A DNA stretch of 38,962 bases from assembly GCA_003564185.1 (NCBI GenBank), contig PXFS01000015.1, forward strand, positions 1-38,962, read 5' to 3'. The notes below the pieces were generated by a model that made no database searches, was not told the DNA's origin, and worked only from the letters and a program-made list of their open reading frames with translations. Source of the DNA: Flavobacteriaceae bacterium (GTDB taxonomy: Bacteria; Bacteroidota; Bacteroidia; Flavobacteriales; Flavobacteriaceae). The stretch's first letter is position 1; every line of letters starts with the position of its first letter. The position numbers and the translations under genes were made by a program. This document shows, one piece after another, positions 14,063 through 17,782 of this stretch.

Positions 14063-14088
14063 AAACGCCTCAAAATTGAGGCGTTTTT
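14063..14088 (+). terminator. Terminator of the 489-residue protein gene
   Basis: AAACGCCTCA pairs with TGAGGCGTTT, a stem of at least 10 bp with a minimal loop, followed by TTTTT. It begins 7 bases after the stop. Confidence 0.88.
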
Positions 14089-14090
14089 GA

Positions 14091-14098
14091 TATATTTG
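14091..14098 (+). promoter_or_regulatory. -7 promoter element for the small Cys-motif protein
   Basis: TATATTTG directly follows the terminator of the preceding gene and lies 21 bases before the GTG start at 14119. Any -33 element would fall inside the terminator stem; no TTG is seen there. Confidence 0.5.
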
Positions 14099-14118: not shown

Positions 14119-14493
14119 GTGAGAAAATTTTTAAGCCTAATTATTCTAGTTTCCTTTACAGCTAAGCCAGCTGTAAACTTTAGTATTATTGCTTATTACC
14201 AGACCAATATCTCACAAATAATTGAAGACTTTTGTGTTAATAAAGACAAGCCAGAGCTTAATTGTGATGGTAAATGTTATTTGGCTCAAAAATTAGATCA
14301 ATCTGCAACAAATTCAGATGAAGTTGATACCAGTTTTGAAATCGCAGAAAGCTTTACACTTGTTTTCTTTTCTCTATTAAATTACGAATCAACAAACTCA
14401 AATTCATTTATCCATAAAGAAATCAATCAAAATTATAAGAACAATTATTCTTACTTATTTTCTTCAAATTTCTTTGTCCCACCCAATGTTTAA
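14119..14493 (+). CDS. Small secreted protein with FCVNKxxPxLxCxGKCYL cysteine motif
   Basis: The 124-residue protein starts at a GTG. A hydrophobic N-terminus (MRKFLSLIILVSFTAKPAV) is a likely signal or anchor. The hallmark is FCVNKDKPELNCDGKCYL with Cys39, Cys49 and Cys53. I recall short Bacteroidetes proteins with this C-x-N-x4-P-x2-x-C-x-G-K-C-Y-L pattern, found near metal (copper or iron) uptake and resistance genes; that is family recollection, not shown here. The three cysteines suit thiol coordination of a soft metal. The rest is polar and poorly conserved looking, ending in aromatic-rich YLFSSNFFVPP. It precedes the MbnP/MbnH genes on the same strand, separated by a 397-base gap with a weak terminator, so membership in the same locus is likely but co-transcription is uncertain. 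Confidence 0.72.
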   Translation: MRKFLSLIILVSFTAKPAVNFSIIAYYQTNISQIIEDFCVNKDKPELNCDGKCYLAQKLDQSATNSDEVDTSFEIAESFTLVFFSLLNYESTNSNSFIHKEINQNYKNNYSYLFSSNFFVPPNV

Positions 14494-14890
14494 GTAATAC
14501 CAATTAGCCATTAGATGCTAATTTTTAGGTAGTAGATTTTTCTTTTATTCTTAATTCTGTTGAGAATCTGGGTATAAAAAGTTTCATGGCAATAGCCACA
14601 ATCAAAATCAAAACTACCTTATTAAAAGCATTTAATCGTCAAATTGGTGTAACTCTATTGACTATTCAGTTGTGTACTAATCACTAATTGAAATCACGGG
14701 TATTACCTCCAATTTTTAGCTTTGAAGTTGTGTTTTTGAATCTAATCAAGAGCTTTAACTTAAAAGTTATAATGTGATATAGTCAAATTTATTTTTAGAA
14801 AATTACAAATCAAACAATTACTATTAAAGTGCATTGTTACGCAATTATACTAGACGTAACCATAGCACAGAACATTTAAATTACTTAAAC
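14494..14890 (+). other. 397-base gap before the MbnP gene
   Basis: The gap holds a weak terminator at 14502-14526 and otherwise AT-rich sequence. A 33-codon ATG frame at 14586-14687 has no recognisable features and is not called. No methanobactin-like Cys-containing precursor peptide, riboswitch or clear TAnnTTTG promoter was found. A promoter for the MbnP gene must be here, or transcripts must read through from the small Cys-motif gene. Confidence 0.6.
14502..14526 (+). terminator. Weak terminator after the small Cys-motif gene
   Basis: AATTAGC (14502-14508) pairs with GCTAATT (14517-14523) around an 8-base loop, followed by a short T run. The stem is AT-rich, so termination may be partial. 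Confidence 0.45.
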
Positions 14891-15712
14891 ATGAAAAATT
14901 ATTTTAAATTATTAAGCTTATTTTTTGTAGCCATACTATTTACTAACTGTTCATCAGATGATGATAACACAACTTCAGCTGAAATTGAAGGTGAAGGGAA
15001 TATTGAATTTTTCTTTGACAACTCATTTAATAACGATGATTTATTATTAGGCGCTAGTACTTATGTCAATTCATTGGGAGAAACCTTTAAGGTAAATAGA
15101 ATGAGTTATATTGTGAGTAATTTTAGTCTAACTGACGAGGAAGGTAATGTATTCACCTATCCAGAAGAGGACAGCTATTTTATTATAAGTGAAGAAGATC
15201 AAGAGTTAAAAGTAGTGCTTGAAAACGTTCCAGCAGGAAATTATACCAGCATGAAATTTGGTGTTGGTGTTCCCATGGAAAGATACTTACAAGGTGAAAC
15301 TTCACAGCAAGAATTTTGGGATTTTGCAGCAACAAGAAACATGACTTGGGCGTGGATTGTAGGCTACAAATTTGTGAATTTTGAAGGAGAATTTACCTCA
15401 GATGAATTAGATGATATGCACGATTTTAAAATTCATATTGGAAGTCATGGTGAAGCATTAGACAATTATAGAGAAGTTGAATTGAGTTTTCCAAGAACTG
15501 CTCAAGTAAGAACAGACAGAACCCCTGATGTTCACTTAGTTGTGGATGCCAATAAAATATTGGATGGAACAAACCAATTTGAATTAACTCCACTCTTAAA
15601 CGACGGTGGATCAAGTCAGATTATGGTTGATGCAGAAAGAGCTCCTTTGGTAGCTGACAATTTTATGGAAATGTTCGTAGTTGATCATATCCACTCTAAT
15701 ACATCTCATTAA
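14891..15712 (+). CDS. mbnP: MbnP-family copper-binding lipoprotein
   Basis: The start at 14891 gives a 273-residue lipoprotein with lipobox LFTNC (Cys20) and an acidic SSDDD spacer; the frame is open further upstream but that part looks untranslated. The body matches the MbnP family: IEFFFDNSFNND, VNRMSYIVSNFSLTDEEGN, a LENVPAGNYTSMKFGVGV strand, then MTWAWIVGYKFVNFEGEF and FKIHIGSHG. In characterised MbnP a tryptophan is oxidised to kynurenine by the diheme partner MbnH and helps bind copper. Trp153 and Trp155 in MTWAW are the obvious candidates, with His182 and His186 nearby. The C-terminus is His-rich (VDHIHSNTSH). The MbnH gene follows after a terminator-like hairpin, which supports the pairing. 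Confidence 0.85.
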   Translation: MKNYFKLLSLFFVAILFTNCSSDDDNTTSAEIEGEGNIEFFFDNSFNNDDLLLGASTYVNSLGETFKVNRMSYIVSNFSLTDEEGNVFTYPEEDSYFIISEEDQELKVVLENVPAGNYTSMKFGVGVPMERYLQGETSQQEFWDFAATRNMTWAWIVGYKFVNFEGEFTSDELDDMHDFKIHIGSHGEALDNYREVELSFPRTAQVRTDRTPDVHLVVDANKILDGTNQFELTPLLNDGGSSQIMVDAERAPLVADNFMEMFVVDHIHSNTSH

Positions 15713-15720
15713 ACCCAATT

Positions 15721-15756
15721 TCCGCCTTGACAAAATAATTGTTAAGGCGGATTTTT
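15721..15756 (+). terminator. Strong terminator-like hairpin between the mbnP and mbnH genes
   Basis: A 13-bp stem (15721-15733 with 15739-15751, one G-T wobble) with a 5-base loop is followed by TTTTT. It lies between the two partner genes, 13 bases before the ATG at 15769, so it probably reduces but does not abolish downstream transcription. Confidence 0.8.
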
Positions 15757-15768
15757 AATCTTTAAGCA

Positions 15769-16818
15769 ATGCAAAAGATTTTTTCTTTATTCATTTTACT
15801 GGTACTAATCTCCTGTAAAAATGATGATTTTGAAAGTGTCTATGAAGATGTCAACGAACCTTATTCGTTTGAAATCCCAAGCAACTTTCCAGAAATGCAC
15901 TATAACCTAGAACACAATCCGCTTACTACTAAAGGAGTTGAATTAGGTAGAAAATTATTCTATGATGGTAGATTGTCTTCAACCAATATTGTGTCTTGTG
16001 CATTTTGTCACGAACAACCTCATGCATTTACACATCACAACCATAACCTAAGTCATGGCGTACATGATCGTGTAGGAAGAAGAAACACCTCGGCGACACA
16101 AAATTTAGCTTTTCAGCCCTGGTTTTTCTTTGATGGTGCTACTTCAAATTTAGATACAGTTTCTATTCTACCTATTCATGATGAAAATGAAATGGACGAA
16201 ACCATTCCTAATATCATTGAAAAGCTAAGCGAAGATTCAGCCTATCAAAAATTATTTCATCAAGCCTTTGAAGATGGTGAAGTCAATTCTACCAACATGA
16301 TGCTGGCACTTTCTCAATTTATGGTAATCATGACTTCTTCAGATTCAAAATACGACAAATATGTAAGAGGCGAACCTGGTGGTGAGCTCACTCCAAAAGA
16401 AGCTTATGGTCTAGAACTTTTTAACGATAAATGTAGAAGTTGCCATGCCACCGATTTATTTACAGATCATCAGTTTAGGAATAACGGCTTGCCTGTTAAT
16501 CCTAATTTGAATGATAAAGGTAGAGCTGAAGTCTCTGGCAATCCAAATGACGATTATAAATTTAAAGTTCCCAGCTTAAGAAATATTGAACTTACTTGGC
16601 CCTACATGCATGATGGCCGATTTGGAAGTTTAGAATCGGTGCTTCTTCATTATAGAAACAACGTACAAGATTATCCAAATTTAGATCCTATTTTAAGAAC
16701 TGAAAATGGACTTGGTATTGAAATGACTGATGAAGAAATGGAAGCCATTATTGAATTTTTAAAAACACTCACAGATTATGAATTTATCACTAATGATGAA
16801 TTATATTTTAGAACGTAG
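15769..16818 (+). CDS. mbnH: Diheme MbnH / cytochrome-c-peroxidase family lipoprotein
   Basis: The 349-residue protein has a lipobox (VLISC, Cys16), so it is exported and lipid-anchored. It has two heme c motifs, CAFCH (77-81) and CRSCH (222-226), in the spacing of the MauG/CCP/MbnH superfamily. Other family marks are LGRKLFYDGRLSSTN just before heme 1, GRRNTSATQNLAFQPWFFFDG, and VPSLRNIELTWPYMHDGRFGSLESVLLHY near the C-terminus (19-residue blocks or shorter given separately: VPSLRNIELTWPYMHDGRF). It may detoxify peroxide as a classical CCP, but next to an MbnP gene it more likely oxidises the MbnP tryptophan. Its end overlaps the next gene by 23 bases, so the two are coupled. Heme attachment requires the cytochrome c maturation system encoded elsewhere. 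Confidence 0.9.
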   Translation: MQKIFSLFILLVLISCKNDDFESVYEDVNEPYSFEIPSNFPEMHYNLEHNPLTTKGVELGRKLFYDGRLSSTNIVSCAFCHEQPHAFTHHNHNLSHGVHDRVGRRNTSATQNLAFQPWFFFDGATSNLDTVSILPIHDENEMDETIPNIIEKLSEDSAYQKLFHQAFEDGEVNSTNMMLALSQFMVIMTSSDSKYDKYVRGEPGGELTPKEAYGLELFNDKCRSCHATDLFTDHQFRNNGLPVNPNLNDKGRAEVSGNPNDDYKFKVPSLRNIELTWPYMHDGRFGSLESVLLHYRNNVQDYPNLDPILRTENGLGIEMTDEEMEAIIEFLKTLTDYEFITNDELYFRT

Positions 16819-17782
16819 ATTAATTCTAACAGTTAGTCTTTTCATGGTACTAAATCCTTCAATTGATGCCTTATACGCAAATGCGTATGATGATTTATTA
16901 TGGGAAGACTGTGATTTATGTGGCTGTGCTACATCAAGTGGTGGTGTTGGATTCACCAATCTAAATAATACTGATTTTATCGGAATTAGAGGTATTTATC
17001 AATCTTTTGAATCAAGAGATGGTATTTTTAATAATTCGCCTAAAATAAAAGAGCAGTTTTACACCTATCAAATTTGGGGTAAAAAGCAGGTTACAGACTT
17101 TTTTAGTGTTTCTGGTGTGATTCCATTTTTAGATTTAAACCGAAGATTTGAAGACGGTCAAACTCAAGGAGTAAATGGTTTAGGAGATATTAGCTTAATT
17201 GGTTGGTATCATTTTAATTTCAAAAAAAAGAAATCCAATGACCAAACTGTATTTGAAGAACCCATGCCTTCCAATCACAGTTTACAATTAGGACTCGGAC
17301 TTAAATTACCCACTGGCGATTTCAAACAAGAGTTAGCTGAAAATCAAGTTAACCCTGGCTTTCAAGTAGGAACAGGAAGTTTAGATTATATAGCAAGTGC
17401 ATTTCACAGTTACACCAGAGAAAAGTGGGGATTAAGCACCAATCTCACCTATTTTTTTAAAACTGAAAACAGTGAGAATTATAGGTTTGGAAATCAGGTT
17501 AGTCTTTCTACCCGAGCATTTACTTTTTTTGAATTCAAAAAGACCGTTTGGATGCCATTTATAGGAATCACTTTTGATCACTTTAATGAAATTGAAGAAT
17601 TTGGGCAAGTCATTCCAAATACTGATGGCTATATAGCCAACGCAATGCTGGGAACCGAGGTGAGTTTAAGCGAAATGTTTACGCTTGGAAGTAATTTTTC
17701 ATTACCCATCCAACAAGAATTGGTGGGCGGTGATGTAAAAGCTGAATACCGATTTTCACTTTACTTAAATTACAGATTTTAA
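16796..17782 (+). CDS. Outer-membrane barrel protein with N-terminal CxxCxC motif
   Basis: The likely start is the ATG at 16796 (328 residues), since MNYILERRLILTVSLFMV gives a signal peptide; the frame is open slightly further upstream. After the signal is WEDCDLCGCATSSGG with Cys39, Cys42 and Cys44, a compact possible metal-binding or disulfide site at the periplasmic N-terminus. The rest has a barrel pattern: alternating strands with QIWGKKQVTDFFSVSGVIPF, LGLGLKLPTGDFK, WGLSTNLTYFF and a final aromatic YRFSLYLNYRF, typical of the transporter-like outer-membrane family. It is translationally coupled to the MbnH gene, so it probably serves the same copper-related pathway, for example in passage across the outer membrane. 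That role is inference. Confidence 0.8.
   Translation: MNYILERRLILTVSLFMVLNPSIDALYANAYDDLLWEDCDLCGCATSSGGVGFTNLNNTDFIGIRGIYQSFESRDGIFNNSPKIKEQFYTYQIWGKKQVTDFFSVSGVIPFLDLNRRFEDGQTQGVNGLGDISLIGWYHFNFKKKKSNDQTVFEEPMPSNHSLQLGLGLKLPTGDFKQELAENQVNPGFQVGTGSLDYIASAFHSYTREKWGLSTNLTYFFKTENSENYRFGNQVSLSTRAFTFFEFKKTVWMPFIGITFDHFNEIEEFGQVIPNTDGYIANAMLGTEVSLSEMFTLGSNFSLPIQQELVGGDVKAEYRFSLYLNYRF

Follow-up and report, generated by a model that had tools for sequence, protein, structure and literature searches.

The window analyzed here, 38,962 nt in length, is one entire contig (PXFS01000015.1) of the assembly GCA_003564185.1 from a Flavobacteriaceae bacterium (2.63 Mb, 173 contigs, completeness 90.4). At positions 14,119-17,782 it carries four genes on the forward (+) strand, whose putative role in copper handling is the subject of this analysis. 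The first gene (14,119-14,493, GTG start) codes for a 124-amino acid protein with three cysteines, termed SCYS, a candidate copper-sensing leader peptide. A 397-nt intergenic stretch (14,494-14,890) separates it from the gene of an MbnP-like lipoprotein (14,891-15,712, 273 amino acids), whose ATG start is prolonged by the open reading frame tool to a TTG at 14,834. The genes for an MbnH/MauG-like diheme lipoprotein (15,769-16,818, 349 amino acids) and for a COG4313/PF13557-type 12-strand outer-membrane channel (16,796-17,782, 328 amino acids) follow. The four same-strand genes, their motifs and the 23-base overlap of the last two, as described in the original prediction, were confirmed from the open reading frames and the sequence, the overlap being 23 bases if the channel starts at the ATG at 16,796 (the longest channel frame begins at 16,778).

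The original prediction had proposed to look for the four genes together across Bacteroidetes, and three samples revealed that the set is indeed conserved. In the family sample, 149 genomes were searched with the single MbnP sequence, a less sensitive search, and 57 of them gave a match. Among the 40 best-scoring loci read out, 20 had the order SCYS-MbnP-MbnH-channel, in 7 the genes of a lipoprotein and a TonB-type receptor preceded MbnP-MbnH and SCYS lay farther upstream, and 13 had neither SCYS nor channel. The MbnH alignment had 582 confirmed relatives, and the best 80 of them made up the second sample (named loci), which consequently favours this MbnH type. At the best MbnH, the four genes stood in order in 46 of the 80 loci; 2 had the channel and lacked SCYS, 7 had SCYS and lacked the channel, one of these lying at a contig end, and 25 had neither. 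A channel was found anywhere in the locus in 51. Holders of the four genes include Flavobacterium, Flagellimonas, Chryseobacterium, Weeksella, Pedobacter, Chitinophaga, Hymenobacter and Dyadobacter. In the third sample, of 247 Bacteroidota genomes (phylum sample), MbnP exceeded the cut-off in 66, with 86 matches. A channel lay no more than 4 kb away from at least 26 of these 86, a SCYS no more than 1.5 kb away from at least 36, and both from at least 24. These are lower bounds: typing took in every MbnP match that exceeded the cut-off, but 37 of the 59 matches to the channel, and the SCYS matches except some 20 weak ones. A copper context was also borne out in relatives, with SCO1-like and YHS-like genes near their loci.

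The identity of the second and third proteins as MbnP and MbnH was upheld. The window MbnP scored 150.9 bits against PF20243 (cut-off 27) and has the MbnP fold; phmmer with its sequence gave no match in PDB, and the MbnP profile matched 7l6g (E-value 1.6e-4). MbnH scored 162.8 bits against PF03150 and has two CxxCH heme motifs, CAFCH (residues 77-81) and CRSCH (residues 222-226). In a profile alignment, its conserved Tyr295 aligns with a Tyr of 6e1c and with a Met of 3o5c; we take 6e1c to be BthA and the aligned residues to be axial ligands, and on this assumption MbnH carries a Tyr as axial ligand where the peroxidase has Met. The nearest solved relatives of MbnH by sequence alone are cytochrome c peroxidases. 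A plain peroxidase was considered and set aside, as the closest named profiles and the Tyr position appear to favour MbnH/MauG/BthA. The candidate kynurenine site of MbnP is a WxW motif (15,347-15,355) formed by Trp153 and Trp155, numbered correctly in the original prediction, and both residues were invariant in 41 of 41 aligned channel-type MbnPs.

Both proteins have a lipoprotein signal, with the lipid-modified Cys in the context TNC-SSDDD in MbnP and ISC-KNDD in MbnH. An acidic stretch follows this Cys in 34 of 49 named channel-type MbnPs, as judged by a loose pattern; the MbnH copies are less regular in this respect. The CSSDDD of MbnP resembles the surface export signals of Bacteroidetes, which include SDDDD and SDDFE (PMC5080379), and MbnP is probably a lipoprotein flipped to the cell surface. 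The locus had been singled out as an MbnP/MbnH pair without methanobactin genes. The absence itself stands, since no match to MbnB (PF05114) was found in the assembly, which is about 90% complete; it is not unusual, however, because the pair is conserved "far beyond" methanobactin producers (PMC3621798).

Joint action of MbnP and the channel is indicated most strongly by a C-terminal HxH motif in MbnP (His266 and His268; 15,686-15,694). This motif was present in the last 45 residues of all 49 named MbnPs whose MbnH precedes a channel, versus 1 of 35 other named MbnPs (0/6 of the suf type and 1/29 of the rest, the single case lying at a contig end). The family sample gave 20 of 20 channel-linked versus 0 of 20 other MbnPs, a comparison whose Fisher p ignores kinship. 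Furthermore, in five loci with two MbnPs (L203, L215, L226, L235 and L237), HxH was found only on the MbnP whose MbnH precedes the channel. The outer-membrane barrel with CDLCGC that the original prediction described goes with one MbnP subtype, and it was confirmed as a 12-strand channel over the Pfam cut-off of PF13557, likened to COG4313/FapF. CDLCGC (residues 39-44; 16,910-16,927) lies ahead of the first barrel strand, and CDxC(G/S/A)C was found in 46 of 46 channels of the four-gene named loci.

Loci of the other type were also observed. Of the 13 family-sample loci with neither SCYS nor channel, 12 (L050, L053-L055 and L064-L071) are followed downstream by genes that match a suf iron-sulfur operon in size, as judged by eye, and the remaining one (L052) is cut by a contig end. 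In L053, HesB/IscA-, SufB- and SufC-like genes beside MbnP/MbnH were recognised by eye from their sequences. The suf-adjoining MbnPs lack the C-terminal HxH.

SCYS belongs to a family with an N-terminal hydrophobic export-type segment, a C-x9-C-x3-C arrangement (x8 in 16 cases) and a Pro-Pro end. In the window copy the cysteines are Cys39, Cys49 and Cys53, the last two forming CDGKC (residues 49-53; 14,263-14,277), and the Pro-Pro codons (14,479-14,484) lie two residues ahead of the stop. The three cysteines were invariant in 31 of 31 aligned sequences. CxxxC together with Pro-Pro in the last 14 residues was found in 196 of 199 SCYS (75 from the named loci and 124 others); in one of the three exceptions Pro-Pro lies 15 residues from the end, and the other two, short frames of 70 and 85 amino acids, lack it. 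Pro-Pro in the last 8 residues was present in 185/199 SCYS versus 8/1159 other genes. In the 196 sequences, the distance from the last Cys to the first Pro is 64-74 residues (mean 68.3, standard deviation 2.1), and the sequence in between is nearly unconserved. The ratio of nonsynonymous to synonymous polymorphism (pN/pS) in 11 Chryseobacterium and 9 Flavobacterium-group sequences, respectively, was 0.34 and 0.48 in the Cys part, 0.51 and 0.74 in the middle, and 0.23 and 0.22 in the five codons around Pro-Pro, which indicates that the frame is translated and that its middle is loose. A nascent chain needs about 65-70 residues to span the path that begins at the peptidyl-transferase centre and passes the Sec channel, and the SCYS tether would therefore suit sensing in the periplasm.

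Among 31 scanned SCYS, no Pfam or NCBIfam family was matched better than E 0.01. Homology to DUF2946 (PF11162) was tried and rejected: none of the 31 matched it at E up to 1 in Pfam/NCBIfam scans, made without profile-profile comparison, and the weak matches (E 0.01 to 1) were to unrelated families, with at most three members each. At E≤0.001, SCYS was found in 94 of 247 phylum-sample genomes and 91 of 149 family-sample genomes, the weakest being partial matches; the corresponding values for MbnP were 67/247 and 57/149.

To learn which genes SCYS precedes, the next gene was read for 124 SCYS from 131 fetched loci, with two contig-edge SCYS matches left out. The next gene coded for a TonB receptor in 52 cases, MbnP in 24, a YtkA-like lipoprotein in 21, a His/Met-rich PF13557 barrel in 17, another SCYS in 5 and CydA in 1; 2 were unplaced and 2 lay at a contig end, these 4 being kept in the denominator. 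Copper-type clients (TonB, YtkA-like, MbnP, barrel and cytochrome bd) thus accounted for 115 of 124, where the labels TonB, YtkA-like, barrel and CydA denote phmmer matches (E≤1e-5) to nine reference proteins, some of them Pfam-scanned. Because 40 of the 131 loci were fetched for lying at MbnP, the MbnP share is inflated. As a control, 634 other same-strand gene pairs from the named loci were examined, and one of them had such a TonB receptor as its second gene. Three SCYS-linked receptors were scanned; two matched best the TonB-copper model TIGR01778 (256 and 139 bits; cut-off 472) and one a siderophore model. Pfam further confirmed a YtkA protein, two PepSY_TM proteins, a barrel and subunit I of cytochrome bd in SCYS loci. 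A C...M pattern, which is loose and has no control, was seen in the first 330 residues of 66 of 82 SCYS-linked receptors. The original prediction had taken SCYS for a metal-handling partner; this was not sustained, since its anatomy and its many different copper-type clients fit a regulatory leader like CruR or CutF.

The barrel next after SCYS in 17/124 cases (for example, L257 and L266) is a second PF13557 type, His/Met-rich (RPDGHAP...), and likely a copper-related outer-membrane protein. In L324 (322-2442), SCYS stands before the gene for subunit I of cytochrome bd oxidase, a copper-free oxidase. In L033 and L034, and by gene sizes in L037, two SCYS genes flank a 145-amino acid exported, coiled-looking lipoprotein upstream of the cassette.

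Between mbnP and mbnH the window carries a strong hairpin (15,721-15,751), with a 13-bp stem followed by a T-rich stretch and a folding z-score of -4.4. In 35 relatives with an mbnP-mbnH gap of 35-120 nt the mean z was -4.28, versus -1.26 in 120 control gaps (p 7e-12), and a 9-bp stem was found in 30 of the 35 versus 47 of the 120; L178 has practically none. The stems share no evident common sequence, and it is the presence of a hairpin that is conserved. In Chryseobacterium mbnP and mbnH overlap, so that a hairpin is impossible there. The hairpin is likely a partial terminator or a 3' guard that would give more MbnP than MbnH. Ahead of SCYS, a pattern search found TAnnTTTG (14,091-14,098), which we take to be the -7 type consensus element of Bacteroidota, and which is a fair promoter candidate for the operon. 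A terminator-like inverted repeat, recognised by eye at about 14,063-14,089, lies just before it. As this repeat is only about 30 bases 5' of the SCYS start, there would be room for no more than a very short operon promoter, unless the promoter overlaps the repeat or precedes it. A mobile element in the 397-nt gap was considered and rejected, the first 249 nt of the gap being single copy in the assembly.

The closest counterparts of SCYS are CruR of Bordetella and CutF of Rhodobacter. CruR heads the operon cruR-bfrG-bp2921 (TonB receptor and PepSY_TM), senses copper by a CXXC motif and acts via RAPP at a conserved spacing; its homologues are listed mainly for Proteobacteria, with a few in Planctomycetes, Firmicutes and Deinococcus, and they are the first genes of operons that contain OprC-type receptors, Sco, PCuAC and MbnPH-like genes (PMC9426467). 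Its arrest was later demonstrated in vitro (PMC12992588). In CrtA-type receptor loci, PepSY_TM is next in >75% and cruR is first in >40% of the operons (PMC12914433). CutF is exported by Sec, carries CxxxC and ends in a proline-rich stretch, and its sign is opposite to that of CruR (PMC9973294). Like these proteins, SCYS is short and exported, with a Cys pair and a Pro-rich C-terminus at conserved spacing, and precedes TonB receptor, PepSY_TM, Sco or MbnPH-like genes (PMC9426467, PMC9973294), which are also the client families given for CruR (PMC9426467). Unlike them, it has no DUF2946 match, has CxxxC with an extra upstream Cys, ends mostly in [H/R/K/Q/P]PP rather than RAPP, has a Cys-to-Pro-Pro distance of 64-74 residues versus 45 intervening residues in CruR, and belongs to Bacteroidota. 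By analogy, SCYS can be read as a functional equivalent of CruR/CutF that lies outside the DUF2946 family. In the phylum sample DUF2946 exceeded the cut-off in 3/247 genomes (6/247 at E≤0.001), far fewer than the 94 with SCYS. One of the three genomes over the cut-off, G384, has no SCYS match and carries a DUF2946-type peptide ending in RGPPGLLA (L343, 1387-1863) directly before MbnP (2006-2962), apparently a natural swap of leader types.

Related leaders have been reported elsewhere. Copper-related RAPP/RGPP leaders occur in many lineages, with Bacillota and Bacteroidota among the exceptions, and TonB-related ones throughout Gram-negatives (PMC12992588); other Bacteroidota leader peptides with Pro ends stand before secDF and secA (PMC10987492). 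CutF-like proteins were also counted in Bacteroidota, at 40% after normalisation, and hence SCYS may already be in the supplementary list of that paper, whose main text does not contain "Mbn" (PMC9973294). MbnPH, the COG4313 channel and the CruR/CutF-type leader are known kinds, and earlier publications cover both the occurrence of MbnPH away from methanobactin loci and that of CutF-like proteins in Bacteroidota. In the open literature searched, with subscription journals and supplements outside its scope, we found no counterpart of the combination, of the HxH-channel link or of SCYS as a regulon marker, and no paper on SCYS-like leaders before MbnP in Bacteroidota. Relative to the MbnP/MbnH pair of Methylosinus (TIGR04052/TIGR04039, PF20243; 7l6g), the proteins here are lipoproteins with a surface-export-like acidic stretch, HxH at the C-terminus of MbnP, and a CDxCGC channel and SCYS as neighbours, and the assembly has no MbnB match. 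The channel differs from the COG4313 channels (PF13557; 4rl8) and FapF by its invariant CDxC(G/S/A)C and its operonic link with MbnP. The TonB-dependent copper receptors OprC/NosA (TIGR01778) and CrtA are CruR clients, and two of the scanned SCYS-linked receptors resemble TIGR01778; in the window operon, a channel of another fold replaces the TonB receptor.

These results suggest that the four genes probably form a copper-acquisition operon with a copper-responsive leader peptide, and that an operon of this type, with MbnPH and the channel under a candidate copper-sensing leader, is widespread in Bacteroidota. SCYS is most likely the leader and not a carrier, as suggested by its export signal, its CxxxC, the Pro-Pro at a near-fixed distance and its varied copper-type clients. 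During synthesis SCYS would be threaded through the Sec channel, so that CxxxC could probe copper on the outer side of the inner membrane. Under copper shortage, the ribosome would pause at the terminal Pro-Pro and expression would continue into mbnP, mbnH and the channel gene; bound copper would relieve the pause and turn the operon off, following the logic of CruR, with the opposite sign, as in CutF, also conceivable. MbnH would turn Trp153 or Trp155 of the adjoining MbnP into kynurenine, completing a copper site, and the hairpin after mbnP would fix the carrier-to-enzyme ratio. The HxH of the channel-linked MbnP may pass copper to the channel, whose CDxCGC would lie at or in its periplasmic mouth and take it over. 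The direction of copper flow is deduced from the company of TonB receptors. The wider proposal, which we put forward tentatively and at somewhat less than even chances, is that SCYS forms a family of its own, found across Bacteroidota and distinct from DUF2946 in sequence, whose members sense copper as nascent peptides and in which the 64-74-residue tether times the periplasmic CxxxC with Pro-Pro at the catalytic centre of the ribosome. It would govern a copper-uptake regulon of OprC-like TonB receptors, YtkA-like lipoproteins, MbnPH-channel and cytochrome bd, and MbnP(HxH)-MbnH-CDxCGC would be a TonB-independent copper entry via a kynurenine-containing surface carrier.

Several observations weigh against this interpretation. 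The terminal motif of SCYS is not RAPP. In the window SCYS a Val precedes Pro-Pro, seen in 0 of 196 relatives, and the gap to mbnP is 397 nt, compared with 43-281 nt in 24 cases and up to 446 nt in the named loci; this copy may therefore be drifting. An attenuator between SCYS and the next gene was not detected: 63 gaps had a mean z of -2.52 versus -2.20 in 110 controls (p 0.27), with no conserved structure, and an uncontrolled mean z of -2.16 for 106 SCYS gaps is meaningless by itself. The NCBIfam cut-offs were missed by both MbnP (TIGR04052, 48.1 of 140 bits) and MbnH (TIGR04039, 199.6 of 362.85 bits). The N-terminal CDxCGC segment of the channel was modelled with a predicted local distance difference test score (pLDDT) near 30, residues 24-55 being under 50, and COG4313 channels have been proposed to serve hydrophobic substrates. 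In the assembly of the window, about 90% complete, SCO1 was matched twice, but no match was found to COX2, and none over the cut-off to TIGR01778. All locus counts ignore kinship, and copper binding, arrest, transport direction and kynurenine are, for this operon, proposals drawn from sequence.

SCYS might instead bind copper as a small protein of the periplasm or inner membrane and cooperate, as chaperone or relay, with MbnP and the channel. Its invariant cysteines and export-type N-terminus, a pN/pS below 1 over the entire frame and its copper-type neighbours would all fit such a protein. We consider it unlikely, because a working protein has no obvious need for Pro-Pro near the stop at a near-fixed distance from the Cys pair, because the part in between is the fastest-evolving one, and because SCYS precedes many different genes and has no constant partner.

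The system could also serve copper defence, with MbnP sequestering copper at the surface, the channel exporting it and expression rising with copper, the CutF-like sign. CutF does activate a copper oxidase when copper is present (PMC9973294), and near some Chryseobacterium loci lie a superoxide dismutase, whose best NCBIfam match was to the Mn type and stayed under the cut-off, and a P-type ATPase identified only by eye. Yet the commonest SCYS client is a receptor of the TonB uptake type, PepSY_TM is next in 12 of 124 cases, one SCYS precedes cytochrome bd, SCO1, a copper-delivery protein, adjoins, and the operon has no energy-coupled efflux partner; defence is thus also a doubtful explanation, with roughly one chance in a handful. 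A role of the channel and the pair outside copper, e.g., the uptake or export of hydrophobic or peptide ligands with MbnP as ligand carrier, would suit a COG4313/FapF-like channel, these families being tied to hydrophobic molecules or amyloid secretion, but appears improbable in view of the CDxC(G/S/A)C motif at the mouth, the copper context and the way the channel is tied to MbnP through HxH.

If copper acquisition under a SCYS leader is correct, then: i) the missing copper regulator of a major phylum would be identified, in the form of a leader found at E≤0.001 in 94 of the 247 Bacteroidota genomes sampled; ii) many small exported proteins without an assigned role would become markers of copper-regulated operons; iii) MbnP and MbnH would gain a concrete membrane partner; and iv) HxH with CDxCGC would provide a one-motif test for the use of kynurenine-type copper sites outside methanobactin biology.

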